Shown here one piece after another: positions 32,862 through 57,458 of a stretch of 64,000 nt of DNA (position 1 is its first letter; each line of letters opens with the position of its first letter). The stretch is from Salinisphaera sp. T31B1. GTDB lineage: Bacteria > Pseudomonadota > Gammaproteobacteria > Nevskiales > Salinisphaeraceae. The position numbers and the translations under genes were made by a program. The stretch covers positions 62,001 to 126,000 of the forward strand of contig NZ_APNH01000004.1 of assembly GCF_040361275.1 (NCBI RefSeq), read 5' to 3'. Under the pieces are notes generated by a model. The model was not told the DNA's origin and did not search any database. It saw only the letters and a program-made list of their open reading frames with translations.

Positions 32862-33686
32862 TCACGGCCGAAGCGGCATGTGGCGATTGACGTCCTTGTA
32901 CAGCAGATACCTAAACGGGCCCGGGCCGCCGGCATAGCAGGCTTGCGGGCAGAAGGCGCGCAGCCACATGAAATCGCCGGCTTCGACCTCCACCCAATCC
33001 TGGTTTAGATGGTAGACCGCCTTGCCCTGCAGCACGTACAGCCCGTGTTCCATCACATGGGTTTCGGCAAACGGAATCACCGCGCCGGGTTGCAGGGTGA
33101 CAATCGTCACATGCATATCGTGACGCAGATCGGACGGCGGGACGAAGCGGGTGGTTGCCCATACGCCGTCGCAGTCCGGCATGGGTGTGGGGTCGATATC
33201 GTTTTCGTTGGTCACGAAGCTCGGCGGTATATCGAGGCCCTCGACAAAGGCGTATGCCTTGCGGATCCAGTGAAAACGCACCGGTACGTCGCCGTGATTA
33301 TGCGCCTGCCAGGTGCTGCCGGGGGCGAGATAGGCATACCCGCCCGGGCCGAGTACGTGGACCGTGTCGTCCATCGTCAGTGACAACTCGCCGTCGACCA
33401 CGAACAGCACGCCCTCGGCGGCCGGATCGAGTTCCGGGCGTTCGCTGCCGCCGCCGGGGGCAACTTCCATGAGGTATTGCGAAAACGTCTCGGCAAAGCC
33501 GGTCATCGGGCGTGCCAGCACCCACAGCCGGGTCGCATGCCAGAAAGGCAGCGCGCTGGTGACGATATCCTGCATTACCCCGCGTGGCAGTACCGCGTAG
33601 GCGGGTGTGAAAACCGCTCGGTCGGTCAGCTTCTGGGTCTGCGGCGGCAGGCCGCCCGGGGGTGCGTAGTAGCTGGGTTGGCTCAC
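32862..33686 (-). CDS. allE: (S)-ureidoglycine aminohydrolase
   Basis: Bicupin enzyme (274 aa) that converts (S)-ureidoglycine to (S)-ureidoglycolate plus ammonia, Mn-dependent. The family start SYYAPPGGLPPQTQKLTDRAVFTPAYAVLPRGVMQDIVTS is typical (YlbA/UGlyAH). The second cupin contains VIPFAETHVMEHGLYVLQGKAVY, whose Glu and His residues bind metal, and the C-terminus ends KDVNRHMPL. It follows puuD by 115 bases on the same strand, the two forming a short purine-degradation operon. The preceding enzyme, allantoate amidohydrolase, is not in the window. Confidence 0.93.
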   Translation of the reverse strand: MSQPSYYAPPGGLPPQTQKLTDRAVFTPAYAVLPRGVMQDIVTSALPFWHATRLWVLARPMTGFAETFSQYLMEVAPGGGSERPELDPAAEGVLFVVDGELSLTMDDTVHVLGPGGYAYLAPGSTWQAHNHGDVPVRFHWIRKAYAFVEGLDIPPSFVTNENDIDPTPMPDCDGVWATTRFVPPSDLRHDMHVTIVTLQPGAVIPFAETHVMEHGLYVLQGKAVYHLNQDWVEVEAGDFMWLRAFCPQACYAGGPGPFRYLLYKDVNRHMPLRP

Positions 33687-33801
33687 GGCTTCTCCATGGT
33701 GGCAGATGGCGATCCTCGATCGAATACACGCCTACGCGGCGCGTCGGGTGTACGCCGGCAGGCACGACGGGCGATCGCCCGGCTTGCTGACGTGACGAGG
33801 C

Positions 33802-35061
33802 TCACGGCGCGGTCTTGTCGATCCAGTCGGCGATCGCCTGGCGTTCGTCGTCGGTCATGCCGGTAATGTTGCCCAGCGGCATGTATCGGCTGGCGACGAC
33901 TTCCTTGATCTTGGCCCGGTGAGCGCGGATGCGCTGTTCGTTGTCCAGCATGATGCCGGCCGGAGGCGCGGCAAAGCTGTCGCTGCTCGGGTTCTGTGCA
34001 TGGCATTCCACACAGCGCGTGTCGATGATCTGGTGGACGCGGGCAAAGGGCGTCCTCGATGCCTGCGACCGGTCGTGGCCGGCGCCGGCCACCGGCGCAT
34101 CGCTTGCCGACGTGTCGTCGGTTTGGGGGCCGAAGGCCGGCGCCGTGAGCCAGAAGGCTGCGAGGATGAACGCCACGCCGGCGATCGGGAATACCGGTCG
34201 GATCTGGCCGGCATGCATGGATACGAAGAACTGTCGGATCAGTGCGCCGGCGACGATGAACAGCACGATCACGACCCAGGCATATGCGTCGGTATACATG
34301 AACGCGTAGTGGTTGCTGAGCATCAACAGAACCACCGGCAGCGTGAAATAGGTGTTGTGCACCGAGCGCTGCTTGCCCCGCTTGCCGTCCAGCGGATCGG
34401 GTATCTGGCCGCTGGTCATCGCCGCAACCATGCGTCGCTGACCGGGGATGATCCAGTAGTACACATTCGCCGCCATGGCCGTGGCCATCACCGCGCCGGC
34501 CAGCAGAAACGCTGCACGCCCGGCGAAGATATGCGTGGCCAGATACGCGACCACCACCATCATCAGCGCGACCGCGATGCCCAGCACGCCGTCGCGTTCC
34601 ATGGTGGGGCTGATGCGTTTGCACAGCTCGTTATAGACGAACCAGCCCAGGCCCAGAAACGCCAGCGCGGCGATATTGGCCTGCCAGCCGGTCATCTGGG
34701 CCGCCCATGACCAGGGACTGTTGTTGTTGACCAGGTAGATCTCGGGCTGGGTCAGATACAGCAGCACGAACAGAGCAAAACCGGATAGCCAGGTCGTATA
34801 GGCTTTCAGGTACGACCAGTGCAGATCGTCGGGCAGCTTGTCCGGAGCGGTGGCGTATTTCTGGTTGTGATAGAAGCCGCCGCCATGCACGGCCCACATT
34901 TCGCCGGCCACGCCGCGGCGTTCGTCCTCGGCATCGGCGGGCTTCTTCAAGCCGTTGTCGAGCATGACGAAATAAAACGATTCGCCAATCCAGGCGATGG
35001 CTGCAATGACGTGCAGCCAGCGCAGCAGCATGTTGCCGAATTCGATCAGATAAGCCTGCAT
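33802..35061 (-). CDS. puuD: Membrane urate hydroxylase with cytochrome c domain
   Basis: PuuD-type urate oxidase (419 aa from the ATG at 35061, GAGGTG upstream): oxidises urate to 5-hydroxyisourate and passes electrons to a c-type heme. The N-terminal about 310 residues carry eight or more membrane segments with conserved His residues (LRWLHVIAAIAWIGESFYF; AVHGGGFYHNQKY). The C-terminal domain has the heme site CVECH (Cys350-His354) and an axial Met in RYMPLGN (Met394). Urate is therefore oxidised without hydrogen peroxide, linked to respiration. The frame to 35118 is not needed. Confidence 0.94.
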   Translation of the reverse strand: MQAYLIEFGNMLLRWLHVIAAIAWIGESFYFVMLDNGLKKPADAEDERRGVAGEMWAVHGGGFYHNQKYATAPDKLPDDLHWSYLKAYTTWLSGFALFVLLYLTQPEIYLVNNNSPWSWAAQMTGWQANIAALAFLGLGWFVYNELCKRISPTMERDGVLGIAVALMMVVVAYLATHIFAGRAAFLLAGAVMATAMAANVYYWIIPGQRRMVAAMTSGQIPDPLDGKRGKQRSVHNTYFTLPVVLLMLSNHYAFMYTDAYAWVVIVLFIVAGALIRQFFVSMHAGQIRPVFPIAGVAFILAAFWLTAPAFGPQTDDTSASDAPVAGAGHDRSQASRTPFARVHQIIDTRCVECHAQNPSSDSFAAPPAGIMLDNEQRIRAHRAKIKEVVASRYMPLGNITGMTDDERQAIADWIDKTAP

Positions 35062-35278
35062 CCACTTCACCTCTACGGGTTCGTCACTCGGGCGCGCTGT
35101 TCGCGGGCGTGTCCGCATACGGCATGCCCGACGTCTTATTGTCCCGTCCGTTCGAATTTAGAATACAACTCGAATATCAATATGTATACAAAACGAGCTG
35201 AAATAGGTATCAAAAGACTGCGGTAGTCGGTCTGGGTCGGTATGACGCCGCTGTCCAGAGGTCAATCGCTGCACATGG
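35062..35278 (-). promoter_or_regulatory. puuD control region with TGTATACA palindrome
   Basis: 217 bases upstream of puuD. The AT-rich core at about 35150-35195 holds TGTATACA at 35183-35190 (with the A at 35191, close to TTGTATACAA), plus AATACAA and TCGAATA words similar to those before uraD/allA. The palindrome fits the operator style of FCD-type GntR regulators, and such a gene lies at 42360. Confidence 0.45.
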
Positions 35279-36697
35279 TCAGAAGGCGTACTCGATCGCC
35301 AGCCGGTTTTCCCAGAAATCGCGATCCTGCGTCTTCTGTGTCTGGTAGGCGAAAAAATCGGATACGCTCAGCCCCTCGAACGCGCCGGACAGGTTATAAA
35401 TCGCATAGACCAGATACTCGGACTGGCCTATGGATTCACCGCCGGACTCGGGGATGAGATCCATATACGAGTAGCGCGCACCCAGCAGCGTGTGTTCGCT
35501 GGGCGCGCCCTTGATCGCCGCGGCATAGGCGTTGCCGGCCCCCAGATCCTGAGTGCTGGTCAGATACGGTTGGGCGAACAGTGGCCCGGATGCTTCGTTG
35601 TGGGCGTAGGGCGTGACCAGCGCGCCGTTCAGCACGCTGTCGCGCTCGCGAGGGATATAGTCGTAATTGAGCGTCGCGGTCAGCGAACGGCGCTCGATAC
35701 CGAGCTGGGCGCCATAGGTGTGGTGATCGATGCGTCCGAGCAATGCACGGCCATCGTCGGTCTCGCGAATGAACTGGGCGCCGAAAAACGGCCGAATCGT
35801 GCCGTTGCCATCTGCGATCTTGCCCTCGACATATGTCATGTCGGCGTAGTCGAGATAGTTGACGAACCAGGCCTTGCCGCTGAGTTGGCTCGCGCCGAAC
35901 GTGGCCTTGTCGGCGCCGCCTACCGCCCAGAAACCGTCGGTTTCGCTGCGGGTGTTGGGCGGGGCGGCTTCGAAGGCGTCGGCGTTGTAGTTGGTGGTCC
36001 GGTCGTAGGAATCGGCGATACGCGACTTGTAGCGATAGATCCGCATCGCACTCAGGTAGCGGTCCGGGCCTCCGTATCGAGCGGATACTCCCTGGTAGAG
36101 CTGGGGAATGATGCGATAGTCATAGGTCGCAGTGAAAGGCACGTCGGAGAGCGCCTGATTGCCCGCGCGCAGACGCAGCTCGTGATCGTCATACTGCAGG
36201 TAGGCCTCGCCGAGGGTGGCGATATCGCGGCCCAGATCCCGGTTGTAGCCGGTTTCGTCGAGATCATTGGAATCGCTCGAGCGGGCGAAGTTGCGCTGCG
36301 CGTAAGTGCTCAGCCGTATCGAGATGCCGTGGAGCTCGGCCGTGGTGAATCCCAGCTTGCCGCCGATCGATGCCGTATGACGATCGTGATCGCCGGCCAC
36401 CGAATCCAGAAAGAACGCGTTGTGATTGGCGTAATAGAGCGTGCGCAGATTGCCGTCGACCTCGCCCAGCGCAAACATCTGCCGAAGGGTCGAGGCCTCG
36501 CCATCGGCGCGCTGTGCGTCGGCGGCCGTGTCGTTGTCCTGTGCGTCGGCATCGTCGGGTAGCGCGGCGGCGGCGTCGCCGTTGTGTTTGGCGGATGCGC
36601 GGGCGGTCGGTGCGGCCCATGCCGCGGTTGCGGCCGCCAGCCCGGCCAAAAGCACGGCCGCGCGCAGTCGGGTTCGGTTCGGATCGCGCCGGTCCAT
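35279..36697 (-). CDS. OprD-family outer-membrane porin
   Basis: 472 aa from the ATG at 36697 (GGAGAG upstream). A signal peptide (about 28 residues, ending TAAWA) is followed by an Ala/Asp-rich linker and a beta-barrel with FFLDSVAGD, GRDIATLGEAYLQYD and a C-terminal RLAIEYAF ending in Phe, as in OprD-like specific channels. It begins one base after the bhcD stop, so it belongs to the bhc operon. It probably admits a substrate of the pathway, such as glycolate/glyoxylate, allantoin or an amino acid. Substrate is inference from position. Confidence 0.8.
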   Translation of the reverse strand: MDRRDPNRTRLRAAVLLAGLAAATAAWAAPTARASAKHNGDAAAALPDDADAQDNDTAADAQRADGEASTLRQMFALGEVDGNLRTLYYANHNAFFLDSVAGDHDRHTASIGGKLGFTTAELHGISIRLSTYAQRNFARSSDSNDLDETGYNRDLGRDIATLGEAYLQYDDHELRLRAGNQALSDVPFTATYDYRIIPQLYQGVSARYGGPDRYLSAMRIYRYKSRIADSYDRTTNYNADAFEAAPPNTRSETDGFWAVGGADKATFGASQLSGKAWFVNYLDYADMTYVEGKIADGNGTIRPFFGAQFIRETDDGRALLGRIDHHTYGAQLGIERRSLTATLNYDYIPRERDSVLNGALVTPYAHNEASGPLFAQPYLTSTQDLGAGNAYAAAIKGAPSEHTLLGARYSYMDLIPESGGESIGQSEYLVYAIYNLSGAFEGLSVSDFFAYQTQKTQDRDFWENRLAIEYAF

Positions 36698-36698
36698 G

Positions 36699-37670
36699 TC
36701 AGCTCTCCAGATCGACATGCCGGGCCATGCCACGTTCACCGGCGAGCTCGACGGCCCGGCAGGCCACGGCCAGGTCCTGAAGGCCGACGCCGGTGCCGTC
36801 GAACAGGGTGATTTCGTCCGCGTCGCGACGGCCGATGGCGTCGCCGTTGATCACCGCGCCGATCGGTGTGATCTCGTGTTCGGCGATCAGCCCGGCACGA
36901 GCGGCATGCTGACATTCGCCCAGTTGTACCGCCTGAGCCGGCTCATCGGCGAACAGGCGTGCCGCGGCGACCAGCCGCGGGTCGACTTCCTGCTTGCCGA
37001 CGGTATCGGTGCCCATGCAGGCGATGTGGGTGCCGGGGCTGACGTGTTCGGCCTTGAGCATCGCCTCGAAGCTCGAGGTGATGGTGATGATGACGTCGGC
37101 TTCGGCTCCCAGCCGGTCCAGGCTCACCGCTTTGAAGGGCACGCCTTCCTCGGCGGCGGTGCGTTCCAGATTGGCAAGCATTTCGGGGTGCAGGTTCCAG
37201 CCGATGACGCGCTCGAAGTCGCGCTGGCGAAGCGCTGCACGCATCTGGAACATCGACTGAAAGCCCGCCCCGAGCATGCCCAGCACGCGCGCGTCCGGGC
37301 GGGCGAGATGTTGGATGGACACCGACGAGGCCGCCGCGGTTCGGGCCGCGGTCAGATAATTGCCGGCCACCAGGGCGGTTGGCTGGCCGGTATCGGCATC
37401 GACCAGCATGACCGTCGATTGATGGTTGGTCAGGCCCTTGTCCGAGTTGCCCGGCCAGTAGCCGCCGGCCTTCAGGCCGAGCGCCGGCGCGCTGGCGTCG
37501 AAGCCGGACTTGAAGCCGTACAAGGCGTCGGCATGGCCGAGCGCCTCCCGGACCACGGGGAAGTTGCGCGCTTCGCCGCGGGCCATGGCTGAGAATACGT
37601 TTTCGACGGCATCGAATGCTTCGGGCATGCCGATCAGCGATTTCGCCATCGTTTCGGTCACTATAAGCAT
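36699..37670 (-). CDS. bhcD: Iminosuccinate reductase of the beta-hydroxyaspartate cycle
   Basis: Ornithine cyclodeaminase/mu-crystallin family enzyme of 323 aa. In the beta-hydroxyaspartate cycle BhcD reduces iminosuccinate to L-aspartate with NADH. The Rossmann motif VLGMLGAGFQSMFQMRAAL lies near residue 130, and a GTHIACMGTDTVGKQEVD segment near 220 is typical of the family. Identification rests mainly on position: it follows bhcC and is in the same run as bhcA and bhcB. Alone, the family would only say 'OCD-like dehydrogenase'. Confidence 0.87.
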   Translation of the reverse strand: MLIVTETMAKSLIGMPEAFDAVENVFSAMARGEARNFPVVREALGHADALYGFKSGFDASAPALGLKAGGYWPGNSDKGLTNHQSTVMLVDADTGQPTALVAGNYLTAARTAAASSVSIQHLARPDARVLGMLGAGFQSMFQMRAALRQRDFERVIGWNLHPEMLANLERTAAEEGVPFKAVSLDRLGAEADVIITITSSFEAMLKAEHVSPGTHIACMGTDTVGKQEVDPRLVAAARLFADEPAQAVQLGECQHAARAGLIAEHEITPIGAVINGDAIGRRDADEITLFDGTGVGLQDLAVACRAVELAGERGMARHVDLES

Positions 37671-37800: not shown

Positions 37801-38919
37801 CTACAGGCACATGCCACGGGCGGTGACGGGCAGAATGCGTTCGACCACGCCGTTGCGCACGCCGATGTACCAGTCGTAGATATTCACGGTCGGGTCGCAG
37901 TGGCCCGGTACCAGCCTGAGCTTTTCGCCCAGGGCGAGTACGTTGTCCGGGTCGGCGATCACGCCGTGTTCGTCCGAGGCGCCGACATACTCGATATCGT
38001 CGCGGCCGTAGACCACGGCCACGCCCGAGTCCACGCTCTGTGCCTTGAGGCCCGCATCGCAGATCGCCTTGTCGGCCTTGGTCTTGCTCATCACGGTCGT
38101 GTAGATGAACAGGCTGTTCTCGAAGTCGTCGATGGGCTGCCCGTCAGCCATGGCGATCCGCTGATAATCGGCGTCCATGAACACGTACGAGCCGCACTGC
38201 AGCTCGTTGTAGACGCCGCTCTTGCCCTCGAAGGCGTAGGTGCCGGTGCCGGCACCGGCCACCAGTTCGCAACTCAGACCGGCCTGCGCTATCTGTTCGA
38301 CGGTGCGGCGGGTGGCCGCCACGGCCTCGTCGATCCTGGCCTTGCGCTCGTCGTAGTCGTGCACGTGCTGGGCTTTGCCCTGATAGGCCTGAAGGCCCTT
38401 GAACACCAGATTCGGCGCGGCGTGGATCTTTTTCGCCAGGGGGACGGCGGCCTCGCCCGGGGCGACGCCACACCGTCCGGCGCCGACGTCGATCTCGACC
38501 AGTACGCCGAGTTCGACGTTGTAACGTGCCGCGGCCGCCGACAGATCGTCGATATTGTCGATATCATCAACGCACACCATGACCCGGGCCTGTGTGGCCA
38601 TGGCGGCCAGACGTTCGATCATATTGGGGTTGATCACTTCGTTGGAGACGAGCACGTCACGCACGCCGCCGTGCACCAGCGCTTCGGCCTCGCTGGTTTT
38701 CTGACAGCACACGCCCACCGCGCCTGCGGCCATCTGGTCGAGCGAGATATCCGCGGATTTGTGGGTCTTGGCATGCGCGCGATGGCGCAGCCCGTGCGCA
38801 TCGATGAAATCGGCCATACGGCGAATGTTGCGCTCGTAGGCGTCCAGATCGATCAGCAGACAGGGCGTGTCGATATCCTCGATACGCGTGCCGATCTGGG
38901 CCGGAATATTCAGGACCAT
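37801..38919 (-). CDS. bhcC: beta-Hydroxyaspartate aldolase
   Basis: D-threonine/3-hydroxy-D-aspartate aldolase family (PLP, fold type III), 372 aa from the ATG at 38919 with GAGGAGA upstream. BhcC condenses glycine and glyoxylate to (2R,3S)-beta-hydroxyaspartate. Motifs: HAKTHKS with the PLP lysine at about Lys51, GAGTGTYAFEG binding the PLP phosphate, and C-terminal LVPGHCDPTVN carrying the divalent-metal ligands. It lies 82 bases after bhcB and 130 bases before bhcD. Confidence 0.92.
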   Translation of the reverse strand: MVLNIPAQIGTRIEDIDTPCLLIDLDAYERNIRRMADFIDAHGLRHRAHAKTHKSADISLDQMAAGAVGVCCQKTSEAEALVHGGVRDVLVSNEVINPNMIERLAAMATQARVMVCVDDIDNIDDLSAAAARYNVELGVLVEIDVGAGRCGVAPGEAAVPLAKKIHAAPNLVFKGLQAYQGKAQHVHDYDERKARIDEAVAATRRTVEQIAQAGLSCELVAGAGTGTYAFEGKSGVYNELQCGSYVFMDADYQRIAMADGQPIDDFENSLFIYTTVMSKTKADKAICDAGLKAQSVDSGVAVVYGRDDIEYVGASDEHGVIADPDNVLALGEKLRLVPGHCDPTVNIYDWYIGVRNGVVERILPVTARGMCL

Positions 38920-39001
38920 GGTCTCTCCTCGAATTGTGTTGTTTGTCATTGCAATGGGTGGAACAGCCGAGCAAGCCGCGTGGGACGACCCGGCGACGCC
39001 C

Positions 39002-39991
39002 TCAACCAACGCTCATCCAGGGCAGTTTGCTCAGATCGACGTTGCCGCCGGTCAGAATCACGCCGACGCGCCGGTTTTCGAAGATCGGGCGGTTTTTGAG
39101 AATGGTCGCCAGCGTCACCGCGCAGGACGGCTCGATCACGATCTTCATGCGCTGCCAGACCAGGCGCATGGCATCGACGATCTCGCGTTCGCTGGCCAGC
39201 AGCACGTCGGTGACGTGGCGGGATACGAAATGCCACGTCAGCGGGCGTAACGAGACACGCAGGCCGTCTGCGATCGTGTCGGGCGCGTCGTCTTCGATGA
39301 TGTGGCCCGCCTTGAACGAGCGGTAGGCATCGTCGGCCTGTTCGGGCTCTGCGGCGTAGATACGCGTCGCCGGAGAGACGTTCGCACAGGTCAGCGAACT
39401 GCCGCTGATCATGCCGCCGCCGCCGATGGGCGCGACCAGCGCGTCCAGAGGCCCGGCCTGCTCGAGTAGCTCGCGGGCACAGGTGCCCTGACCGGCGATT
39501 ACCCGCGGATCGTTGTACGGATGGACGAAGTGCGCGCCGGATTTCTGAGTGATCGATTCCAGCGTGCGCTCGCGGGCCTCCAGACTCGGCTCGCAGGTCA
39601 CGATCTGCCCGCCGTAGCCGCGCACGGCGTCCATCTTGGCTTGGGGTGCGGTATGCGGCATGACCACGGTGCACGGGATGCCGCGGCACTGGGCCGCGCG
39701 CGACAGCGACAGGGCATGGTTGCCACTCGAATGCGTGGCCACACCGCGTCGGGCCTGGTCATCGGTGAGGCTGAACACGGCGTTGGTCGCGCCCCGTACC
39801 TTGAACGCGCCGGCTTTCTGGAAGTTCTCGCACTTGAACAGCAGCGTGGCGCCGCTCAGGTCGTCGAAGGTGCGGCTGGTCAGCACCGGCGTGCGGTGAA
39901 TCCAAGGTGCGATGCGTTCGTGGGCGGCACACACGTCGTCATAGGTCGGAATCGTCATGTCTTGTTCCGGTTGTTCGGCTTGTCCTGTCAT
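39002..39991 (-). CDS. bhcB: beta-Hydroxyaspartate dehydratase
   Basis: Serine/threonine dehydratase-family PLP enzyme, 329 aa. BhcB eliminates water from beta-hydroxyaspartate to give iminosuccinate. PLP lysine in QKAGAFKVRGA (Lys64), glycine loop PIGGGGMISGS, C-terminal GVILTGGNVDL. Its ATG at 39991 overlaps the bhcA stop (TGATG), so translation is coupled; an internal ATG at 39958 is the alternative. The frame to 40519 lies inside bhcA and is not real. It is a paralogue of the enzyme at 10193-11203. Confidence 0.92.
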   Translation of the reverse strand: MTGQAEQPEQDMTIPTYDDVCAAHERIAPWIHRTPVLTSRTFDDLSGATLLFKCENFQKAGAFKVRGATNAVFSLTDDQARRGVATHSSGNHALSLSRAAQCRGIPCTVVMPHTAPQAKMDAVRGYGGQIVTCEPSLEARERTLESITQKSGAHFVHPYNDPRVIAGQGTCARELLEQAGPLDALVAPIGGGGMISGSSLTCANVSPATRIYAAEPEQADDAYRSFKAGHIIEDDAPDTIADGLRVSLRPLTWHFVSRHVTDVLLASEREIVDAMRLVWQRMKIVIEPSCAVTLATILKNRPIFENRRVGVILTGGNVDLSKLPWMSVG

Positions 39992-41181
39992 CACGCGACC
40001 CTCTGCTTCCAGCGGTTGCGGGTCGCGCTGTAGTAAGCCTGAGCAGCCGCCACGCCACGACCCAGTTCGATGGGGTAGTCGAGGTTGGCCATGGCCATTT
40101 CTATGGTCGCGATTCCCGCCAGTGCCATGACATCGGTCATGTCGCCGAGATGACCGATGCGAAACGCCTTGCCGGCGATATCGCCAAGCCCGATGCCATA
40201 GGAGACCCCGTAGTGCTCGTAGGCGTGGTTGACCAGCTCGGTGGCGTCGAAGCCCTCGGGAACGCGCACCGCCGTGACCGTGTCCGAATAGAGTTCGGGG
40301 CGGCGTGCGACCAGTGGCAGCGACCAGGCGGCCACCGCACGGCGGACACCTTCGGCGATGCGGTGATGACGCGCGAACACCCTGGTCAGGCCTTCTTCCT
40401 CTAGCATGGTCACGCTCTCGCGCAGCCCGCGGATCAGGCCCAGCGGCGGGGTATAGGGGAAGCTGCCCTTGCGGTTGGCTTCGCGCATGGCCTGCAGATC
40501 GAAATAGGCGCGCGGGCACCGAGCGTTGGCACAGGCCGCGATGGCCTTAGGGCTGATCGCGAGGATCGCCAGCCCGGCGCCTAGCATGAAGCCTTTCTGT
40601 GAACCGGTGACCGCGATGTCCACGCCCCAGTCGTCCATGCGGAAGTCCATCGATGCGATGGAACTCACGCCGTCGACGAACAGCATGGCCGGATGCTGCG
40701 CATTGTCGAGCGCCCGCCGTACCGATGCGATATCGCTGGTCACACCGGTTGCGGTTTCGTTGTGGCAGGCCAGTACCGCCTTGATTCGATGCTGGGTATC
40801 GGCCTTGAGGATACGTTCGTACTCGTCGGCCGGTACGCCGTCGCCCCATTCGCTTTCCACCGCATGCACGTACAGACCCTGATCGCGACACAGCTTGATC
40901 CAGCGCTGGGAGAACATGCCGTATCGCGCTGCCAGGACTTCATCGCCCGGCGACAGGGTGTTGGTGACGGCGGCTTCCCAGCCGCCAGTGCCTGTGGACG
41001 GAAACAGCAGCACTTCGCCGACCGTGGTCTTGAACACACGTTTGAGATCGTCCAGCAACGGCACGAACTGATCGGCGAAATCGGACGCCCGGTGGTCTAC
41101 CGTCTGTACATCCATGGCCCGACGGATACGGTCGGGCATGTTGGTCGGCCCGGGAATGAAAACGGGATTCTGTGTCGCCAT
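39991..41181 (-). CDS. bhcA: Aspartate--glyoxylate aminotransferase
   Basis: Class V aminotransferase (alanine/serine--glyoxylate aminotransferase family), 396 aa from the ATG at 41181 with AGGAGGAGAG upstream. BhcA transfers the amino group of aspartate to glyoxylate, giving glycine and oxaloacetate, the first step and the exit point of the cycle. PLP lysine is Lys196 in VTGSQKGFMLGAG; FIPGPTNMPDRIRRAM is the family N-terminus and HLGDMTDVMALAGI near the end is typical. First gene of bhcABCD-porin and divergent from bhcR. Confidence 0.93.
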   Translation of the reverse strand: MATQNPVFIPGPTNMPDRIRRAMDVQTVDHRASDFADQFVPLLDDLKRVFKTTVGEVLLFPSTGTGGWEAAVTNTLSPGDEVLAARYGMFSQRWIKLCRDQGLYVHAVESEWGDGVPADEYERILKADTQHRIKAVLACHNETATGVTSDIASVRRALDNAQHPAMLFVDGVSSIASMDFRMDDWGVDIAVTGSQKGFMLGAGLAILAISPKAIAACANARCPRAYFDLQAMREANRKGSFPYTPPLGLIRGLRESVTMLEEEGLTRVFARHHRIAEGVRRAVAAWSLPLVARRPELYSDTVTAVRVPEGFDATELVNHAYEHYGVSYGIGLGDIAGKAFRIGHLGDMTDVMALAGIATIEMAMANLDYPIELGRGVAAAQAYYSATRNRWKQRVA

Positions 41182-46996: not shown

Positions 46997-47033
46997 CCGT
47001 CTGACCTTTCATCTTCCGGAGCCGAGCTCTTCA

Positions 47034-49318: not shown

Positions 49319-49672
49319 ATGGGTTATCTGACGACACACGTACTCGATACTGCCAACGGCTGCCCGGGCGTGGGCATTCCCGTCGTTGTGCGACGTCTCG
49401 AAGCCGGGCAGGCCACCACGCTTGCTCAGACACAGACCAACGACGACGGCCGATGCGATCGGCCGCTGATCGAAGACGACGCGTTCACCGCAGGCCAGTA
49501 CGAGATCGTGTTCGACGTGGGGGCCTATTTCGCCGACCGACGCGAATCACTGGACAGCCCGGCGTTCATCGACGAGGTGGTCATCCGCTTCGGCGTCGCT
49601 CACGCTGATCAGCACTATCACGTGCCGCTGCTGGTCTCGCCCTATGGCTACAGCACTTACCGTGGCAGCTGA
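49319..49672 (+). CDS. uraH: 5-Hydroxyisourate hydrolase
   Basis: Transthyretin-like enzyme, 117 aa, hydrolysing the PuuD product 5-hydroxyisourate to OHCU. The family N-terminus TTHVLDTANGCPG and the invariant C-terminal YRGS are both present; YHVPLLVSPYGYSTY precedes it. No signal peptide, so cytoplasmic. Lies between the NCS2 permease and the deaminase in the + strand run. Confidence 0.95.
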   Translation: MGYLTTHVLDTANGCPGVGIPVVVRRLEAGQATTLAQTQTNDDGRCDRPLIEDDAFTAGQYEIVFDVGAYFADRRESLDSPAFIDEVVIRFGVAHADQHYHVPLLVSPYGYSTYRGS

Positions 49673-49711: not shown

Positions 49712-51067
49712 ATGACGAGCACACTGCTACGCAATGCGGCGGTCATCGCCACCATGGACGACAGCGACACGCTGCTGCACAACGCCAGCATCCGTATCGT
49801 GGACAACCGCATCGAGGCGATCGGTCCGGCCGACGAGATCACCGGCGGCGCCGACGAAACGATCGATGCGAGCGGCCATATCCTGATACCCGGCCTGGTG
49901 AACACCCATCATCATTTCTATCAGACGCTGACGCGTAACGTGCCGGCCGGCCAGGACAGCGACCTGTTCAACTGGCTGGTCGCCCATTACCCGATATGGG
50001 CCCGCATGGACGCCCGCGCGATCGATGCGAGCACCCGCATCGCGATTGCCGAACTGATGTTGTCTGGCTGTACCACGGCCGCTGACCATACCTATATCTG
50101 GCCCAATGACGCACGCGTCGACGACCAGATTCACGCCGCCGCCGAGATGGGGTTCCGCTTCCATGCCGCGCGCGGGTCGATGTCGGTCGGGCAGTCGCGT
50201 GGGGGACTACCGCCGGATCACGCCGTCGAAGACGAGGATTTCATCCTCACCGATTCGCAGCGGGTGATCGAGACCTATCATGACGACAGCCACGGTGCGA
50301 TGACGCGTATCGTGCTCGCCCCGTGTTCGCCGTTTTCGGTTTCCACCGATCTGATGCGCGAAACAGCGGCGCTCGCGCGCACGCATCGCGTGCATCTGCA
50401 TACCCATCTGGCCGAGACGCTTGACGAGGAGAATTACTGCCGGGAACTGTTCGGCCAGACGCCCGTCGAGTATGCCGAGGCCAACGGCTGGGTCGGCGAC
50501 GACGTGTGGTTCGCGCACATGGTGCACCCGCACGAGGCCGAAATCGGCCGGCTCGGTGAGCATCGTTGCGGTGTCGCCCATTGTCCGAGTTCCAACATGC
50601 GGCTAGCCTCGGGGGTCGCGCCGATCCGTGCGCTTCAGGACGCGGGTGCGCGGGTCGGGCTCGGTGTGGACGGCTCGGCATCCAACGACTGTTCGCACAT
50701 GCTTGGCGAAGCCCGTCAGGCCATGTTGTTGCAACGTTTGGCCAACGGCCCGGACGGCTTGAGCGCGCGCCAGGCGCTGCGTCTGGCCACCCGCGGCGGC
50801 GCTGAAGTACTCGGCCGCGACGATATCGGCCATCTGGCACCGGGGATGGCCGCCGACATCGTCGGTTATCGTCTTGACAGCCTGCCGCTGGCGGGCGCGG
50901 CGGTACACGATCCGCTCGCTGCGCTGGTCTTCTGCTGGCCGCCCCAGGTCGATCTGAGCCTGATCAACGGCCGGTTGCGGGTGCATCGGGGCGAACTGCT
51001 CGGCGTCGATGTTCCGTCGTTGGTCAAGCGTCACAACGCCATCGCCACGGCGCTGGTCAACGGCTGA
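49712..51067 (+). CDS. 8-Oxoguanine deaminase / guanine-type amidohydrolase
   Basis: Amidohydrolase of the ATZ/TRZ group, 451 aa. Metal ligands are seen in NTHHHFYQTL (His-x-His), HTHLAET, a later His in FAHMVHPHEAEIGRL, and GVDGSASND. The sequence, including the N-terminal TLLRNAAVIATMDD and the GCTTAADHTY region, is like the 8-oxoguanine deaminases that convert 8-oxoguanine to urate. Guanine deaminase is the alternative. In this cluster either activity would feed urate or xanthine into the pathway. Ribosome site AAGGAG precedes the ATG. Confidence 0.85.
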   Translation: MTSTLLRNAAVIATMDDSDTLLHNASIRIVDNRIEAIGPADEITGGADETIDASGHILIPGLVNTHHHFYQTLTRNVPAGQDSDLFNWLVAHYPIWARMDARAIDASTRIAIAELMLSGCTTAADHTYIWPNDARVDDQIHAAAEMGFRFHAARGSMSVGQSRGGLPPDHAVEDEDFILTDSQRVIETYHDDSHGAMTRIVLAPCSPFSVSTDLMRETAALARTHRVHLHTHLAETLDEENYCRELFGQTPVEYAEANGWVGDDVWFAHMVHPHEAEIGRLGEHRCGVAHCPSSNMRLASGVAPIRALQDAGARVGLGVDGSASNDCSHMLGEARQAMLLQRLANGPDGLSARQALRLATRGGAEVLGRDDIGHLAPGMAADIVGYRLDSLPLAGAAVHDPLAALVFCWPPQVDLSLINGRLRVHRGELLGVDVPSLVKRHNAIATALVNG

Positions 51068-51126
51068 ACACCGCCGGGCCTTCGCGCCGGTAACAATTCG
51101 TGATCCATCGCTCCGGGGGAGCCTTC

Positions 51127-53955
51127 ATGCACACTTTCAATGCTTCGCGGCGGCAGTTTCTCAAGCGCTCGATCGTCGCCGGCGTGAGCGTCTACGTCGC
51201 CAACCTCGCCAGTCCCGCGTTCGCGTCCCTGTTCGAACAGCAGGTGCTCACGCCGACCGATCGGGTCTGGAAACCGGGGGCCGGGATGCAGTTCCGCCTC
51301 GACGGCGTGGCCAAGGTCACCGGTAGCAAGGTGTTCGCGCGCGATATCCGCGCACGCGACATGCCCCACTGGCCGGATACGCAGGCACATGCCTTCATCG
51401 TGCGCGCCACATGCTGCGACCGTCGGTTCGAGGGTATCGACCTGTCGGCGCTCGAGCAGGCCGGGCTGGCGCCCGAGCGCGTGGTCACCGCCGAGGACAT
51501 GGCCCGCGACAACATCCAGGTACCCGACTACTACGGGCCCGAGTTCTTCCTGCCCAAGGGACGCACGCCGCTTTATCTGGGCTATCCCGTGGCGATGCTG
51601 ATCTACCACGATTTCGATCGTTTCAGCATTGCCAAGAGCCGCGTGCGTGCGGCCGAGAACGTAGTGGTCTACGGCGATACCACGGACCTGCCGGACAAAC
51701 CGCCCTACGGCGCGTTCCGATATATCCGCGTCGGCGGCGATACGCCGTACGACACAGATCGGTTCTCGGCACTCCAGGAGACGGTGCTGTACCCGGATTT
51801 CCGCAAGCGCCACCCGGTCTGGCCGCAGGCGCTGGAAAATGGCAAAGACAGCGAGCGCGCGATGTATCACGCCGATGCGCTGGCGCAACAGCTGGATAAC
51901 CCGCCCGACGACTGGCTGGTCTTCGAGGGCGAGTATCACACCCCCTATATCGACCATTTCGCCATGGAGGCCGACAACGCCAACTGCTGGTTCGATGCGT
52001 CGGCCGGCGACATGCACGTGGTCTGCGGAAGCCAGTCGCCCAGCGAACTGGTCGAGCGCATGGCCGCACTGCATTCGGCGAGCACGTTCGCCAGCCATCG
52101 TTTTTTCCTGCACCCGACCTATACCGTGGGCTACGGTTCGAAGGACAACTCGATCTTTCCCTACTACGGCATGCTGGCCGCCTATTATGCTGACGGCCAT
52201 CCGGTACGCCTGGCCAACGACCGCTACGAGCAGTTCCAGGCAACGATGAAGCGGCATCCGTTCACGATCCGCAATCGGCTGGCCGTCGAGCGTAAGACCG
52301 GCAAGTTCCGGATATTCAAACAGGATCTGACCGCCAACGGCGGCGGCCGGGCGAATTTCTCCAATTCGGTCGCCTTTGTGGGCACTACCGCCGCCCAGGG
52401 CATCTATTACATGCCCAACAGCGACCTGACGGCCACCGCCATCTATTCGCGGATGCCCGAGGCCGGCTCGATGCGCGGCTACGGCACCTTGCAGACCATG
52501 GCCGCGACCGAGGTCATGGTCGATGAGATCGCGGGCGAACTCGGGATGGATCCTATCGAGCTGCGGCTGGCGAACGTGTTCAAGTCGGGCATGAAGAATA
52601 CCCAGGGCGCGATCCCGGCCGGCCATCTTCGCGGCGAGGAGATTCTCAACAAGGCGAAGCGGCATGACATATGGACAACGCGCGCCGAGCGCAAGAAAGC
52701 CTATGAGGCCGATCATCCCGAGCATCGCTACGGGGTGGGTTTTGCCTGCGTGCAGAAGGATTTCGGCCACGGTGCGGAGGCGGTCTACTCACAGGTCCAG
52801 CTGATGCCCGACGGTCGAATCGAGCTGCGTAACACCGGTGCCGAGATGGGTACCGGTTATTCGACCAGCCAGGCAGCGGTCGTAGCAGCCTGGCTCGGCC
52901 GGCCGGCCGATGTCGTTCACACCGCCGAAACCGAGTGGGACGATCTGGCGATGAAGGCCACGGGCAATCCGTACCTGATGTCCCAGGACACCCAGGATGC
53001 TGCTCAGTCGGATCCGCGCTGGACGCCGATGCTCCAGCAGGCCTCGAGCGCGAGCAACTCGGCCTATTATCTGTCGTTCCCGACCATCGAAGCCGCGCGC
53101 GTGATCTTTCGCCACGGCCTCTGGCCGGTCGCACTCGAATACTGGCAGCGCGGCATCGGCGGGGGACAGGCCGCGCCGTATGTGGTGCGCGAGGCCGATG
53201 CGGTCTGGAAGGACGGCAAGCTCTCGGCCAACGGCATGGAACCTCTGTCGCTGGCGTTTCTGGCCGAAAGGGCACATGCCCAGGGCCGGGTGACCGGCGT
53301 CATGGCCCATGCGTTCAACCGCTGGGCTTGGTCGCGGGCCGACTACGACATCGACGGCACCACCGAAAATCTGCCGCTGGACGGGCTGGCCGTGCAGTAC
53401 GGTCAGGGTGCGTCGCCGGCAAAGAAAGCACGCATGACCACGGCCCGCGGGTTCGAGCGGCTTACCCGTTCGAACCCGTATTTCCCGCCCACCCAGCGCA
53501 ACAACGCCGGGGTCACCTACTACAGCGCCTGTGGCACGCTCGTGGAACTGGCGGTCCATACCGGTACCGGCGAGATCTCCCTGCTCAACCACCACACGTT
53601 TCTGGAATGCGGCAACACCATCGTCGAGGAGCTGGTCTCGGGCCAGTTGCAGGGCGGGATCGCCATGGGGATCGGTCATGCGCTGCACGAAGACATGCCG
53701 CTGTATGAAGACGGCCCGGGCAACGGGACGTGGAACATCAACCGCTACCGCGTCCCCCGTGCCAGCGATGTAGCCGTCTGGCAACAGACGGCGGAGATTC
53801 TGCCGCCGGTCTCGCGTACCGAGCCGCCCAAGGGCATTGCCGAAGTCGTGATGATTCCGATTGTCGGGGCGATCGGCAACGGCGTGGCCCACGCCATCGG
53901 CCATCACTTCCATCATTTGCCCATCACCGCCGAACGCGTCCGGGAGGTCCTGTGA
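51127..53955 (+). CDS. Molybdenum hydroxylase large subunit, Tat-exported
   Basis: Xanthine dehydrogenase/isoquinoline-oxidoreductase-family molybdopterin subunit, 942 aa from the ATG at 51127 (GGGGGAG upstream). Residues about 7-33 form a Tat signal (SRRQFLKRS then a hydrophobic run to PAFA). The Mo-site features include SMRGYGTLQTMAATEVMVDEI and the base glutamate in PPKGIAEVV (about Glu906). It should hydroxylate an aromatic heterocycle or aldehyde in the periplasm and pass electrons to the 2Fe-2S and cytochrome subunits. Placement next to purine genes suggests hypoxanthine/xanthine oxidation, which is inference. There is no FAD subunit. Confidence 0.83.
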   Translation: MHTFNASRRQFLKRSIVAGVSVYVANLASPAFASLFEQQVLTPTDRVWKPGAGMQFRLDGVAKVTGSKVFARDIRARDMPHWPDTQAHAFIVRATCCDRRFEGIDLSALEQAGLAPERVVTAEDMARDNIQVPDYYGPEFFLPKGRTPLYLGYPVAMLIYHDFDRFSIAKSRVRAAENVVVYGDTTDLPDKPPYGAFRYIRVGGDTPYDTDRFSALQETVLYPDFRKRHPVWPQALENGKDSERAMYHADALAQQLDNPPDDWLVFEGEYHTPYIDHFAMEADNANCWFDASAGDMHVVCGSQSPSELVERMAALHSASTFASHRFFLHPTYTVGYGSKDNSIFPYYGMLAAYYADGHPVRLANDRYEQFQATMKRHPFTIRNRLAVERKTGKFRIFKQDLTANGGGRANFSNSVAFVGTTAAQGIYYMPNSDLTATAIYSRMPEAGSMRGYGTLQTMAATEVMVDEIAGELGMDPIELRLANVFKSGMKNTQGAIPAGHLRGEEILNKAKRHDIWTTRAERKKAYEADHPEHRYGVGFACVQKDFGHGAEAVYSQVQLMPDGRIELRNTGAEMGTGYSTSQAAVVAAWLGRPADVVHTAETEWDDLAMKATGNPYLMSQDTQDAAQSDPRWTPMLQQASSASNSAYYLSFPTIEAARVIFRHGLWPVALEYWQRGIGGGQAAPYVVREADAVWKDGKLSANGMEPLSLAFLAERAHAQGRVTGVMAHAFNRWAWSRADYDIDGTTENLPLDGLAVQYGQGASPAKKARMTTARGFERLTRSNPYFPPTQRNNAGVTYYSACGTLVELAVHTGTGEISLLNHHTFLECGNTIVEELVSGQLQGGIAMGIGHALHEDMPLYEDGPGNGTWNINRYRVPRASDVAVWQQTAEILPPVSRTEPPKGIAEVVMIPIVGAIGNGVAHAIGHHFHHLPITAERVREVL

Positions 53956-54512
53956 GCACACCCGATCCGATCAAGCGCAAGCCGCTGAAGGTCACCATCA
54001 ACGGCGAGCAACAGCCGGTCGAGCAAGTGCCCGACGAGCTGATGATGCTCGATTATCTCAACGAATACCGGAACCTCACCGGGACGCGTTTCGGCTGCGG
54101 TATCGGGCTGTGCCGAGCCTGTACCGTGATCGTCGATAGCCCGGACGGGCACAGCGAGGAGATACGCACCTGTATCACCGGCGCGCACTATTTCAACGGC
54201 AAGTCGATCCGGACCGTCGAGGGCCACGCCGAGCGTGACGATCGCGGCGAGGTGGTCTCGCTGTCCGAGGTCCAGCAGCAGTTTCTGAACCATTTCTCGT
54301 TCCAGTGCAGCTACTGCGCGCCGGGCTTCGTCAACGCCGCGACGGTGCTGATCGAGCGCCTGCAACGCGATCCGGTGCCCCGATCGCAGCTCGAGGATAC
54401 GATCAGTCAGGCGCTGGAATCGCATCTGTGCCGCTGTACCGGCTACGTGCGCTATTACCAGGCAGTGCGGGATGCAGTGCTGGCGACGTCCGGCACCACG
54501 GTGGAGGGTTGA
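53952..54512 (+). CDS. 2Fe-2S subunit of the molybdenum hydroxylase
   Basis: 186 aa starting with GTG at 53952, overlapping the large-subunit stop by 4 bases (GTGA). Plant-type ferredoxin cluster: Cys49, Cys54, Cys57 and Cys74 (FGCGIGLCRACTV). All-helical second cluster: Cys119, Cys122, Cys160, Cys162 (CSYCAPG; LCRCTGY). No signal peptide is visible, so it is probably co-exported with the Tat-tagged large subunit. The frame begins upstream at 53730 but that is inside the large subunit. Confidence 0.9.
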   Translation: MSTPDPIKRKPLKVTINGEQQPVEQVPDELMMLDYLNEYRNLTGTRFGCGIGLCRACTVIVDSPDGHSEEIRTCITGAHYFNGKSIRTVEGHAERDDRGEVVSLSEVQQQFLNHFSFQCSYCAPGFVNAATVLIERLQRDPVPRSQLEDTISQALESHLCRCTGYVRYYQAVRDAVLATSGTTVEG

Positions 54513-54514
54513 TC

Positions 54515-55729
54515 GTGCGTACGGCTGCTTATTTGCTGATCGCGCTGGCCGTCGGGTGCAGTGCGTCGATGACGGTATTCGCCGCCGAGCGCGTGGACGC
54601 CCAGGTCGAGCGCGGCGAGTATCTGGCGCGTGCGGCCGACTGTGCGGCCTGTCATACGGCGAAGGGGGGCACGCCCTATGCCGGCGGCCATCCGATCGAC
54701 ACGCCGTTCGGCACCGTCTACGGCACCAACATCACGCCCGACAAGCAGTACGGCATCGGCGACTACAGCGCGGACGATTTCTATCACGTGCTCACTCAAG
54801 GTGAGCTGCCGGATGGCACGCAGCTGTATCCGGCCATGCCTTATACCGCCTATCACGACATCGCGCGCGAGGACTCGGATGCGATGTATGCCTACTTCAT
54901 GAGCCTCGACGGCGTGCACGCCGCCGGCCCGCAAACCGACCTGTCGTGGCCGTTCTCGATGCGCTGGACCTTGAACGTCTGGAACTGGATGTTCGCCGGA
55001 TCCGATACGTCCGGCCCGCCGGCGGACGACGACCCGCAGTCCGGCCGCGGGCGCTACCTTGTGGACACGCTGGGCCATTGCGGCCAGTGTCATACGCCGC
55101 GCAACATGCTCGGCGCGGTCGAGAGCGACAAGCGCCTGCAGGGCGCGGTGATCGCCGGCTACGAGGCACCGAATCTGCTGCCGACATCACTGGCTTCGCG
55201 CGGCTGGGACACCGACTCGCTTCGGACCTTTCTGCGTGAAGGGCGGAGCCGGCAGGGCAGCATGTATAGCGAGATGTACCCGGTATTCCATCACAGCACG
55301 CGGTATCTGAACGACGCGGATCTGGCCGCGATGACCGGCTACCTGCTGGGCGCCGAGCCGCCGGCACCGAAAACGATCAGCGCCGCAACCGACCTCGGTG
55401 ACGACCCGGGACGTCAGCTCTATCTCAACAGCTGTGCCGGCTGTCACGGCGCACAGGGTCAGGGCGCGGCTCAGGTCGCCTCGGCGATGACCGGCAATAC
55501 GACGCTGCGACTGGACAGTCCGCGCAATCTGGTGAAGATCATTCACGACGGGATCGCCGCACGGCAATTCAATGGCACAGAGCGCGCGCAGGCCATGCCG
55601 GGCTTTGCCGACAAGCTCAGCGACGATGAGATCGCGACGCTGGCAACCTATCTGCGCCGACAGTGGGGGGGCCAGAAAACGCCGGTCGATGCAACACAAG
55701 TGGCCGACATGACGGACACAAAGCAATAA
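54515..55729 (+). CDS. Triheme cytochrome c electron acceptor subunit
   Basis: 404 aa from the GTG at 54515, two bases after the 2Fe-2S gene. A signal peptide (about 23 residues, to MTVFA) directs it to the periplasm or inner-membrane face. Three heme sites: CAACH (Cys43-His47), CGQCH (from Cys189) and CAGCH (from Cys307), the arrangement of alcohol/aldehyde/nicotinate dehydrogenase cytochrome subunits. It should carry electrons from the molybdenum enzyme to the respiratory chain. Confidence 0.91.
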
Positions 55730-55763
55730 ACTGCGCCTCAGGCAGTTCCAATCAGGTGCTTCA

Positions 55764-57458
55764 ATGACGACACACGGCAGCAAACGCCCCCTCTATATCC
55801 CCTACGCCGGTCCGACGCTGCTCGAGATGCCGCTGCTCAACAAGGGTAGTGCGTTCGACGCCGACGAGCGGGTGGCCTTCAATCTGATCGGGCTGCTGCC
55901 GCAGAACGTGGAAACGATCGAAGAGCAGGTCGATCGGGCCTACCAGCAGTACACCACGTGTACGAACGATCTGGACAAGCATATCTATCTGCGCGGTATC
56001 CAGGATGACAACGAGACCATGTTCTTCCGGCTGCTCGAAGACCATCTCGAAGAGATGCTGCCGATCATCTATACGCCGACCGTCGGGCAGGCCTGCGAGA
56101 AGTTCTCCGAAATCTACCGCAATCACCGCGGCATCTTCATCTCCTATCCGGACCGGCACCGGATCGACGACATCATCCGCAGTGCCACCAAGGATAACGT
56201 CAAGGTCATCGTGATCACCGATGGCGAGCGTATTCTGGGTCTGGGTGATCAGGGTATCGGGGGGATGGGCATTCCCATCGGCAAGCTGTCGTTGTACTCG
56301 GCCTGTGGCGGCATCAGCCCGGCGTATACGCTGCCGATGGTTCTGGACGTGGGCACCAACAATCAGGAACTACTCGACGACGAGATGTACATGGGCTGGC
56401 GCCATGAGCGCATCGGCGACGCAGAGTACGCCGAATTCGTGGATCTGGTCATCCAGGCCATCCGCCGGCGCTGGCCGAACGTGCTGCTGCAGTTCGAGGA
56501 TTTCGCCCAGCGCAATGCGCTTCCGTTGCTGTCCCGCTATCGCGATCAGCTGTGCTGTTTCAACGACGATATTCAGGGTACGGCCGCCGTGTGCGTGGGT
56601 TCGTTGTTGGCCGCGTGCAAGGCCAAGAACGAATCCATCGCCGATCAGACCGTGGCCTTCGTGGGCGCCGGGTCGGCCGGCTGCGGTATCGCCGAGCAGA
56701 TCATCGCCGCGATGGTGGACGAGGGGCTGACCGACAGCCAGGCACGGGCCCGTATCTACATGATCGACCGGAATGGCCTGCTCACCGACAGCATGGCGAG
56801 CCTGCCCGATTTCCAGCGGCGGCTGGCGCATCCCAAGGCACGTATCGAGGAATGGGGCGAGGATACCGAAGAGGATCCGATCCTGACGGTCATCGAACAT
56901 GCACGGCCGACCGTGCTCATCGGCGTATCGGGCCAGCGTGGTCTGTTCTCTCGTGAGGTGATTCAGCGCATGCATTCGCATTGCGCGCATCCGTTCGTCA
57001 TGCCGTTATCCAATCCCACGTCCAAGGTCGAGGCCACGCCCGCCGAGATCCTCGAGTGGACCGACGGCGCGGCGCTCGTGGCTACCGGCAGCCCCTTCGA
57101 TCCGGTCGAGATCGGCGATCGCACGATCCCGATCGCCCAGTGCAACAATGCCTATATCTTTCCCGGCATCGGCCTCGGCGTAGTGGCGGCCCAGGCACGA
57201 CGAGTGACCGAGAACATGATCATGAGCGCCTCGCGCGCACTGGCCGAGATGTCGCCGCTGGGCGTCGATGGCGAAGGTGCGCTGCTGCCGCCGCTGGAGC
57301 GGGTACGTGAGCTGAGCCAATCGATCGCGGTGGCCGTCGCTCGTCAGGCACAGGCCGACGGTGTGGCGCTCAAGTCCTCCGAAGACGCCATTCGGGAAAG
57401 CGTAGCGCGCAACTTCTGGTACCCGCGCTATCGTCGGTATCGGCGTGCCGCGTTCTAG
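55764..57458 (+). CDS. maeA: NAD-dependent malic enzyme
   Basis: Oxidatively decarboxylates malate to pyruvate. 564 aa, matching E. coli MaeA/SfcA (565 aa). Signature regions: [17 protein letters not shown] near residue 108, the metal/substrate region [11 protein letters not shown] near 266, [13 protein letters not shown] (NAD fold) near 305 and [13 protein letters not shown] near 415. It is the last gene of the + strand run, 34 bases after the cytochrome gene. After the beta-hydroxyaspartate cycle gives oxaloacetate, and malate from it, this enzyme would make pyruvate for gluconeogenic or biosynthetic use. Confidence 0.94.

Follow-up and report, generated by a model that had tools for sequence, protein, structure and literature searches.

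The DNA analysed here (the window) is a 64 kb stretch of the genome of Salinisphaera sp. T31B1 with a GC content of 64.4%, corresponding to positions 62001–126000 of contig C4 in an assembly of 4.36 Mb and nine contigs (genome G000). At 31597–57458 the window carries an island in which a near-complete gene set leading from purines to glyoxylate is joined to bhcABCD and bhcR of the β-hydroxyaspartate cycle (BHAC), together with permeases, a molybdenum (Mo) hydroxylase set, an 8-oxoguanine deaminase and a malic enzyme (Table 1). The locus is very probably an island for the assimilation of purines and ureides, with the BHAC as its glyoxylate sink.

Gene content of the island

Genes were called and their products were searched against NCBIfam, with bit scores compared with the curated cut-offs, and against Pfam; selected proteins were also compared with solved structures. 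Profile coverage was approximately full-length for the genes at 32862–57458, and every gene named there in a first-pass annotation of the window was recovered. The allantoin racemase of that annotation was present, its identity being supported only at the level of the Asp/Glu/hydantoin racemase family. Its gene list had passed over the NCS1 and NCS2 permeases, the OprD-like porin, the GntR and LysR regulators, the 8-oxoguanine deaminase and the set of Mo hydroxylase, 2Fe–2S subunit and multi-haem cytochrome c.

PuuD, UraH and UraD occur together in the window and make up a PuuD-type route from urate to allantoin; the C-terminus of PuuD carries a CxxCH (cytochrome c) motif, as read from the sequence. 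For the ureide route, PuuE, (S)-ureidoglycine aminohydrolase (UGlyAH) and AllA are encoded in the window and the allantoate step elsewhere in the genome. A candidate allantoate amidohydrolase (AllC homologue; subfamily model NF006769, 557 bits against a cut-off of 452) lies outside the window at C4:45664–46845, about 48 kb from the UGlyAH gene on the same contig. UGlyAH, whose best solved relative is 1sq4 ('Glyoxylate-induced Protein', 453 bits), is possibly bifunctional, acting also as an allantoicase, to judge from the name of model NF040771 ('bifunctional allantoicase/(S)-ureidoglycine aminohydrolase'). An allantoicase family search matched none of the 14 genomes of the genus, but as all of its controls were silent too, this does not demonstrate absence; a purine cluster in an Oceanospirillaceae metagenome-assembled genome (MAG; locus L116) did match that family. 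A urea carboxylase candidate (1939 bits) is encoded elsewhere in G000. A search for urease alpha gave no match in G000, and scores over the cut-off in eight of the 14 genus genomes.

A glyoxylate carboligase (Gcl) elsewhere in the genome had been named in the first-pass annotation as a finding that would speak against its reading. It was looked for, and none scored over the cut-off in the 14 genomes of the genus, that of T31B1 included (best 283 bits against 711); the phylum-sample search described below likewise gave no Gcl in G000 at 1e-200.

Identity of the BHAC enzymes

All four BHAC enzyme genes are in the window, each nearest to its own BHAC family by NCBIfam and structure comparison. 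The complete bhcABCD and bhcR reported at first pass held for BhcA, BhcB and BhcD at the level of the equivalog cut-offs; BhcC (590 bits against 690) and BhcR (298 against 350) fell short of theirs. NF045642 is nevertheless the sole NCBIfam match of BhcC, and the closest solved structure is that of a D-3-hydroxyaspartate aldolase (6qkb, 487 bits), followed by D-threonine aldolase (7dib, 373 bits). BhcC retains the pyridoxal phosphate (PLP)-lysine motif and the PGHCDP motif, with neighbouring residues that differ from those of 68 of the 74 BhcC sequences compared: around the PLP lysine, HAKTHK is found in five (the window lineage), HGKMHK in 68 and HAKMHK in one. BhcR was assigned from its position adjoining the bhc genes and its membership of the IclR family. 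The palindrome GAAAAATTTTC beside it is the sole match in the window at one mismatch or fewer, where 0.24 matches were expected and at least one was obtained in 22 of 100 shuffles.

BhcA was also considered as a ureidoglycine–glyoxylate aminotransferase of the PucG/HpxJ type. This assignment was rejected, given 693 bits in the BhcA family against 117 and 95 for the solved PucG-type enzymes 3isl and 3nnk, and the presence of bhcBCD. The BhcA of L116, which is over the cut-off (684 bits against 650) but has no adjacent bhcBCD, may still be of that type. BhcA homologues under the cut-off (540–640 bits; 22 loci, L063–L084) were set aside; none has bhcBCD nearby by tblastn, and their purine-family matches are racemase-family ones only, in two loci and at 27–28% identity.

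Table 1
Features of the island in window coordinates. Scores are in bits, given as score > cut-off or score < cut-off where a curated cut-off applies.
Feature	Position	Strand	Evidence and remarks
LysR-family regulator	31597..32529	-	Adjoins UGlyAH also in G011 and G012
UGlyAH, possibly also allantoicase	32862..33686	-	NF008373 515 > 445; exception model NF040771 497 > 350
PuuD, membrane urate oxidase	33802..35118	-	PF06181 (Urate_ox_N) 399; true start probably within ORF
OprD-like porin	35279..36739	-	Weak PF03573, 29 > 25; same region in G011, G012 and G014
bhcD, iminosuccinate reductase	36699..37670	-	NF045643 550 > 500; 6rqa 420
bhcC, 3-hydroxy-D-aspartate aldolase	37801..39009	-	NF045642 590 < 690; longest ORF, start probably inside
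bhcB, beta-hydroxyaspartate dehydratase	39002..39955	-	NF045641 590 > 550, residues 190–501; 3' part of ORF 39002–40519
bhcA, aspartate–glyoxylate aminotransferase	39991..41181	-	NF045640 693 > 650
bhcR, IclR-family regulator	41287..42234	+	NF045644 298 < 350; start probably within ORF
Palindrome GAAAAATTTTC	41332..41342	+	Lies between probable starts of bhcR and bhcA; weak candidate for an operator
GntR-family regulator	42360..43106	+	Belongs to allantoin core, kept in bhc-less congeners
puuE, allantoinase	43182..44117	+	TIGR03212 535 > 425
uraD, OHCU decarboxylase	44200..44727	-	TIGR03164 202 > 96
allA, ureidoglycolate lyase	44899..45459	+	Subfamily model NF009932 180 > 160; under AllA equivalog cut-offs; start probably inside
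NCS1 permease, allantoin-permease-like	45395..46996	+	PRK11375 275 < 620; PF02133 265; start probably inside
Asp/Glu/hydantoin racemase family, probable allantoin racemase	46989..47765	+	PF01177 160; part of conserved allantoin core
NCS2 xanthine/urate permease	47861..49264	+	TIGR03173 504 > 414
uraH, hydroxyisourate hydrolase	49319..49672	+	TIGR02962 136 > 87
8-Oxoguanine deaminase	49712..51067	+	PRK08203 671 > 532
Molybdopterin hydroxylase large subunit	51100..53955	+	PF02738, PF20256; twin-arginine-like N terminus (SRRQFLK)
2Fe–2S subunit of Mo hydroxylase	53730..54512	+	PF01799, PF00111 from residue 88; start near 53955, within ORF
Multi-haem cytochrome c, probable electron acceptor	54305..55729	+	PF00034, PF13442; start inside
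Malic enzyme	55764..57458	+	PRK13529 857 > 326

Outside the island, a TRAP transporter fused permease (653 bits) is encoded at 13898–15928 of the window. A second BhcA-like aminotransferase of G000 (459 bits; locus L041, 10852–12135, at G000:C1:975972) was left aside; by sequence appearance its neighbours resemble a TRAP transporter, an enoyl-CoA hydratase and a CoA transferase. In locus L042 (genome G008) a BhcA-like gene by TRAP/CoA-ester-like genes and a BhcC-like aldolase (510 bits) 5 kb off were found (10040–11245, 16362–17477).

Occurrence in the genus and family

The related set comprised 61 genomes including that of T31B1, 14 of which belong to the genus. BhcA was over the cut-off in five: G000, G002, G011 and G012 (genus) and G014 (family). 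In all five bhcA lies within a purine island, in differing arrangements, and bhc in the window lineage was seen inside purine islands only (5/5 genomes, one with a broken set). G002 and G014 have a UGlyAH–GntR–PuuE–AllA start in common, and bhcABCD is full in four of the five, G002 being the exception. The malic enzyme gene also recurs: its distance to bhcA is about 11 kb in G014 and about 2 kb in a Psychrobacter locus (L095).

PuuE was found in 13 of the 14 genus genomes (G006 having it in two pieces that score below the cut-off). The congeners with PuuE and without BhcA over the cut-off have a compact allantoin operon, UGlyAH–GntR–PuuE–AllA–NCS1–racemase, with all six genes in order in eight of nine; the ninth has four of the six, on a 4.6 kb contig. 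G002 and the bhc-less G007 are collinear over 5.4 kb, as far as the end of the racemase gene; there homology stops, and bhcR follows in G002. The bhc module thus has a sharp boundary in this congener, which would fit either gain or loss of the module. The contig of G002 continues for 6 kb past its truncated bhcC; this DNA is lower in GC and carries a plasmid KfrA-like gene. The bhc set of G002 is a copy that is either broken or misassembled. The genes after the truncated bhcC (locus L040, G002:C42, 10490–17134) are KfrA-like, TauD-like and argininosuccinate-synthase-like.

In the bhc-less congener G005 an N-terminal fragment of malate synthase G lies at a contig edge (G005:C67:1–708, locus L172). 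The allantoin core follows immediately downstream of it, and C6 holds another partial copy; another glyoxylate sink is possibly joined to the allantoin operon there.

Occurrence across the phylum and on plasmids

A sample of 398 genomes, that of T31B1 included, was drawn evenly from the phylum. BhcA was over the cut-off in 17; PuuE was present in 146 and Gcl in 52. According to the genome tables PuuE accompanies BhcA in 15 of 17 genomes and Gcl in 52 of 52, and BhcA and Gcl occur together in none of the 398; the 146 PuuE-bearing genomes thus comprise 15 with BhcA, 52 with Gcl and none with both (Fisher P = 0.0012). PuuE distances were taken among the matches listed, where weak second copies may be missing and G447 is not counted (51 versus 52 genomes with Gcl and PuuE). 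On this basis 20 kb or less separates PuuE from bhcA in six of the 17 BhcA genomes (that of T31B1 included) and from gcl in 11 of the 52 Gcl genomes. Among the 14 other genomes with BhcA and PuuE, five are linked (≤20 kb), against 0.17 under uniform placement (Poisson P ~1e-6); the joining of the purine set to bhc, which the first-pass annotation had taken as meaningful, is therefore beyond chance. At least two purine genes lie within the fetched stretch in four of the 18 other bhc loci of the sample, and UGlyAH only in two.

From a named collection 80 loci were taken, and the BhcA identity is 54–68% in 61 of them (L089–L148 and L150). At least two purine genes lie within about 10 kb of bhcA in 17 of these 61, one of which (L116) has bhcA only. 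The purine-linked loci include Defluviimonas, Frigidibacter, Palleronia, Octadecabacter, Yoonia, Paracoccus, Phaeobacter, Fulvimarina and several MAGs; L150 (Frigidibacter RF13) has a full bhc and purine set. In L116, positions 3155–17098 hold glcDEF, an NCS2 permease gene, bhcA, uraH, puuE, uraD, an allantoicase gene, allA and puuD. A neighbourhood set of 83 loci was assembled without L150, L149 and L151–L168 (31–42% identity in L149 and L151–L168). At least two purine genes were found no more than about 11 kb from bhcA in 25 of the 83, against glycolate oxidase in two (L059 and L116). This set is enriched for relatives of the window; in its evenly drawn part the counts are four of 18 for purine genes and one of 18 for glycolate oxidase.

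A BhcD relative was found in 114 PLSDB plasmid records, and five plasmids were looked at. Plasmid pMRAD01 of Methylobacterium radiotolerans carries, over about 27 kb, urease, uraH, puuD, puuE, uraD, the Mo/2Fe–2S/cytochrome set, an NCS2 permease, 8-oxoguanine deaminase and bhcABCD–bhcR; compared with the window its Mo subunit is 51% and its 8-oxoguanine deaminase 59% identical. The recurrence beside bhc of the deaminase and Mo hydroxylase set (window 49712–55729) suggests a purine substrate for this uncharacterised Mo enzyme. Plasmid pSMR1-1 of Pseudosulfitobacter pseudonitzschiae has allA, puuE, uraH, puuD, xdhABC, guaD, UGlyAH and bhcRABCD. None of the purine genes searched for was in the stretch around the plasmid bhc loci of Ruegeria pomeroyi and Paracoccus marcusii, and a plasmid of Rhizobium N324 has a glcDEF–bhcRABCD cluster instead, as does its near-identical relative L059. 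Contrary to what had been supposed at first pass, the combination is accordingly not special to this locus: it recurs in three congeners (one with a broken set), one family member, many Rhodobacterales loci and the Methylobacterium and Pseudosulfitobacter plasmids.

Phylogenetic analysis

Maximum-likelihood trees of concatenated BhcABCD were calculated quickly, with a short search and no bootstraps. In the first tree (72 sets, G002 partial) the window sequence and those of G002, G011, G012 and G014 form one clade (starred) on a long stem. A second tree contained 78 sets, with the plasmids and L150 added; 15 of its 78 rows, which were unlabelled or uncertain because their flanks were short or held one purine gene only, were excluded from the count. 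A single clade of all purine-linked sets was strongly rejected (p-AU 3e-54), the purine-linked group having been defined by gene context and the first tree already seen before this test. In a group of 19 rows of the first tree (Ruegeria, Roseovarius, Roseobacter, Marinobacterium, Psychrobacter and others) none of the 15 labelled rows is purine-linked.

Proposed function and rival explanations

In the BHAC, BhcA forms glycine from glyoxylate and aspartate, BhcC joins glycine and glyoxylate, and BhcB and BhcD give back aspartate; the net result is the conversion of two glyoxylate with NADH to oxaloacetate without loss of CO2. We infer the enzyme activities of the island, its induction by purines and the use of purines as carbon as follows. 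The porin and permeases would import purines or allantoin. Urate would be fed in by the Mo hydroxylase and the 8-oxoguanine deaminase, the former possibly supplying 8-oxoguanine or urate, and would be converted to allantoin by PuuD, UraH and UraD. PuuE, an allantoate step (the AllC homologue and/or a bifunctional UGlyAH), UGlyAH and AllA would then yield glyoxylate, ammonia and urea. BhcA, BhcC, BhcB and BhcD would turn this purine-derived glyoxylate into oxaloacetate, still without CO2 loss, and the malic enzyme could supply pyruvate. BhcR would be expected to sense glyoxylate and to couple both halves. The side-by-side pairing, which recurs both on plasmids and in other bacteria, suggests that purines serve as food for carbon in addition to supplying nitrogen. 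The BHAC would fill the place held by the gcl–hyi–glxR–glxK glycerate module in the allantoin systems of Escherichia coli and Pseudomonas aeruginosa, and the first-pass proposal that it replaces the glycerate pathway agrees with its standing where other purine degraders carry glyoxylate carboligase.

Several observations weigh against purine assimilation as the role of the island. Nine congeners have PuuE without BhcA over the cut-off, so purine use does not need the BHAC. The alignment of the G002 bhcC extends over just 221 of 402 residues and its contig has no bhcD, and in the window BhcC and BhcR are both under their NCBIfam cut-offs. The remaining 12 of the 18 other bhc loci of the phylum sample have no purine gene within about 10 kb (some flanks being truncated). 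The test for exclusion of BhcA and Gcl in PuuE-bearing genomes takes no account of relatedness, and over all 398 genomes the exclusion is not significant (P = 0.14). Linkage is also partly inherited: the second tree (27 purine-linked and 36 unlinked sets) needs 16 changes against a shuffle mean of 20.7, with label shuffles as low as 16 in six of 300. Finally, G000 has another glyoxylate sink, malate synthase G, and another glyoxylate source, glcDEF at ~401–405 kb on C4, about 280 kb away on the same contig. Malate synthase needs acetyl-CoA and no Gcl is over the cut-off, so that no net route from glyoxylate to C4 other than the BHAC was found. Since glcDEF is present, glycolate is a second possible glyoxylate source, and the BHAC may serve glycolate as well as purines.

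If glycolate were its main substrate, the BHAC would sit in a purine island because both supply glyoxylate and can share a regulator, and purines would be a nitrogen source only. Besides glcDEF of G000, a GlcD homologue at 531–545 bits (cut-off 568, none over) in 13 of the 14 genus genomes fits this explanation, as do the glcDEF–bhcRABCD clusters of the Rhizobium plasmid and L059 and the description of the BHAC for glycolate in PMC11323563. The GlcD homologue is, however, kept by congeners without the BHAC too, purine genes stand beside bhc in the window and all four bhc-bearing relatives with no glycolate oxidase seen within about 10 kb, and glycolate oxidase lies within about 10 kb of bhcA in only two of the 83 loci (flanks partly truncated). 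We regard a mainly glycolate role as unlikely. We give still less credence to the view that the BHAC detoxifies glyoxylate or balances amino groups while purines are used for nitrogen alone, and is not a carbon route. Purines yield one C2 unit per four N, bhcC and bhcD of G002 are lost or broken on the contig, and the purine cluster of L116 has bhcA with no adjacent bhcBCD and would make glycine only; against this, the window has the complete BCD set, an aminotransferase alone or the malate synthase G present would suffice, and the analogous gcl module of P. aeruginosa is required for carbon (PMC12694930). That a mobile bhc cassette landed near purine genes by historical accident, with no functional tie, is very improbable. 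The plasmid-borne bhc sets, the many bhc loci without purine genes nearby and the KfrA-like gene after the truncated bhcC of G002 would be in keeping with such an accident, which is disfavoured because linkage recurs far above the uniform expectation, in different gene orders and in sets that are not one clade.

More generally, and only tentatively, since we put its chances somewhat below even, the BHAC may serve purine catabolism as an interchangeable cassette for glyoxylate assimilation, put in place repeatedly (by plasmids among others) where other bacteria use Gcl. Carbon-neutral assimilation of purines and ureides would then stand beside glycolate use as a second natural role of the BHAC, one that has been largely overlooked.

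Comparison with known systems

The E. coli allantoin system has a glycerate module and an AllB-type allantoinase, and the window differs from it in having PuuE and the BHAC with BhcR. The two are alike in bringing together purine-degradation and glyoxylate-assimilation genes; in E. coli (gcl/AllR) these form one regulon under a glyoxylate-sensing IclR-family regulator, as mentioned in PMC11323563. That source reports that BhcR binds the bhc promoter and responds to glyoxylate, and describes the Paracoccus denitrificans BHAC, with the same four enzymes and an adjacent bhcR, for glycolate; in its introduction purines and allantoin are named as no more than possible glyoxylate sources. The BHAC had already been published for Gammaproteobacteria too (PMC11323563). 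The window lineage differs from P. denitrificans in forming a separate branch, with HAKTHK in its five BhcC sequences.

A purine–glyoxylate assimilation module that is allantoin-induced and needed for carbon is already known from the gcl cluster of P. aeruginosa (PA1498–PA1502): the cluster is allantoin-inducible and its mutants fail on allantoin as sole carbon source (PMC12694930). In both systems purine- or allantoin-derived glyoxylate would be carried to a central metabolite, as it is in P. aeruginosa. P. aeruginosa uses glyoxylate carboligase and the glycerate route, with loss of CO2, whereas the window genome has bhcABCD and no Gcl over the cut-off. The island is the same design with a module that keeps rather than loses carbon.

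The closest likenesses by public annotation are pMRAD01, in which bhcRABCD occurs with uraH, puuD, puuE, uraD and the 8-oxoguanine deaminase/Mo hydroxylase genes, and pSMR1-1, in which it occurs with allA, puuE, uraH, puuD, xdhABC and UGlyAH. These are alphaproteobacterial plasmids with other gene orders (and urease on pMRAD01), whose bhc enzyme genes are labelled only 'glycolate/glyoxylate catabolic process' in the gene table. No report of purine–bhc linkage was found in a literature search, which did not take in the 2019 Nature paper on the BHAC.

Until now the BHAC has been presented as a pathway for glycolate; among the loci studied here, bhc stands beside purine genes more often than beside glycolate oxidase. 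The pairing is a natural one for engineering a carbon-neutral use of glyoxylate derived from allantoin or urate. Should bhc be induced by purines and needed for their use as carbon, part of the environmental bhc signal may reflect purine and ureide turnover.

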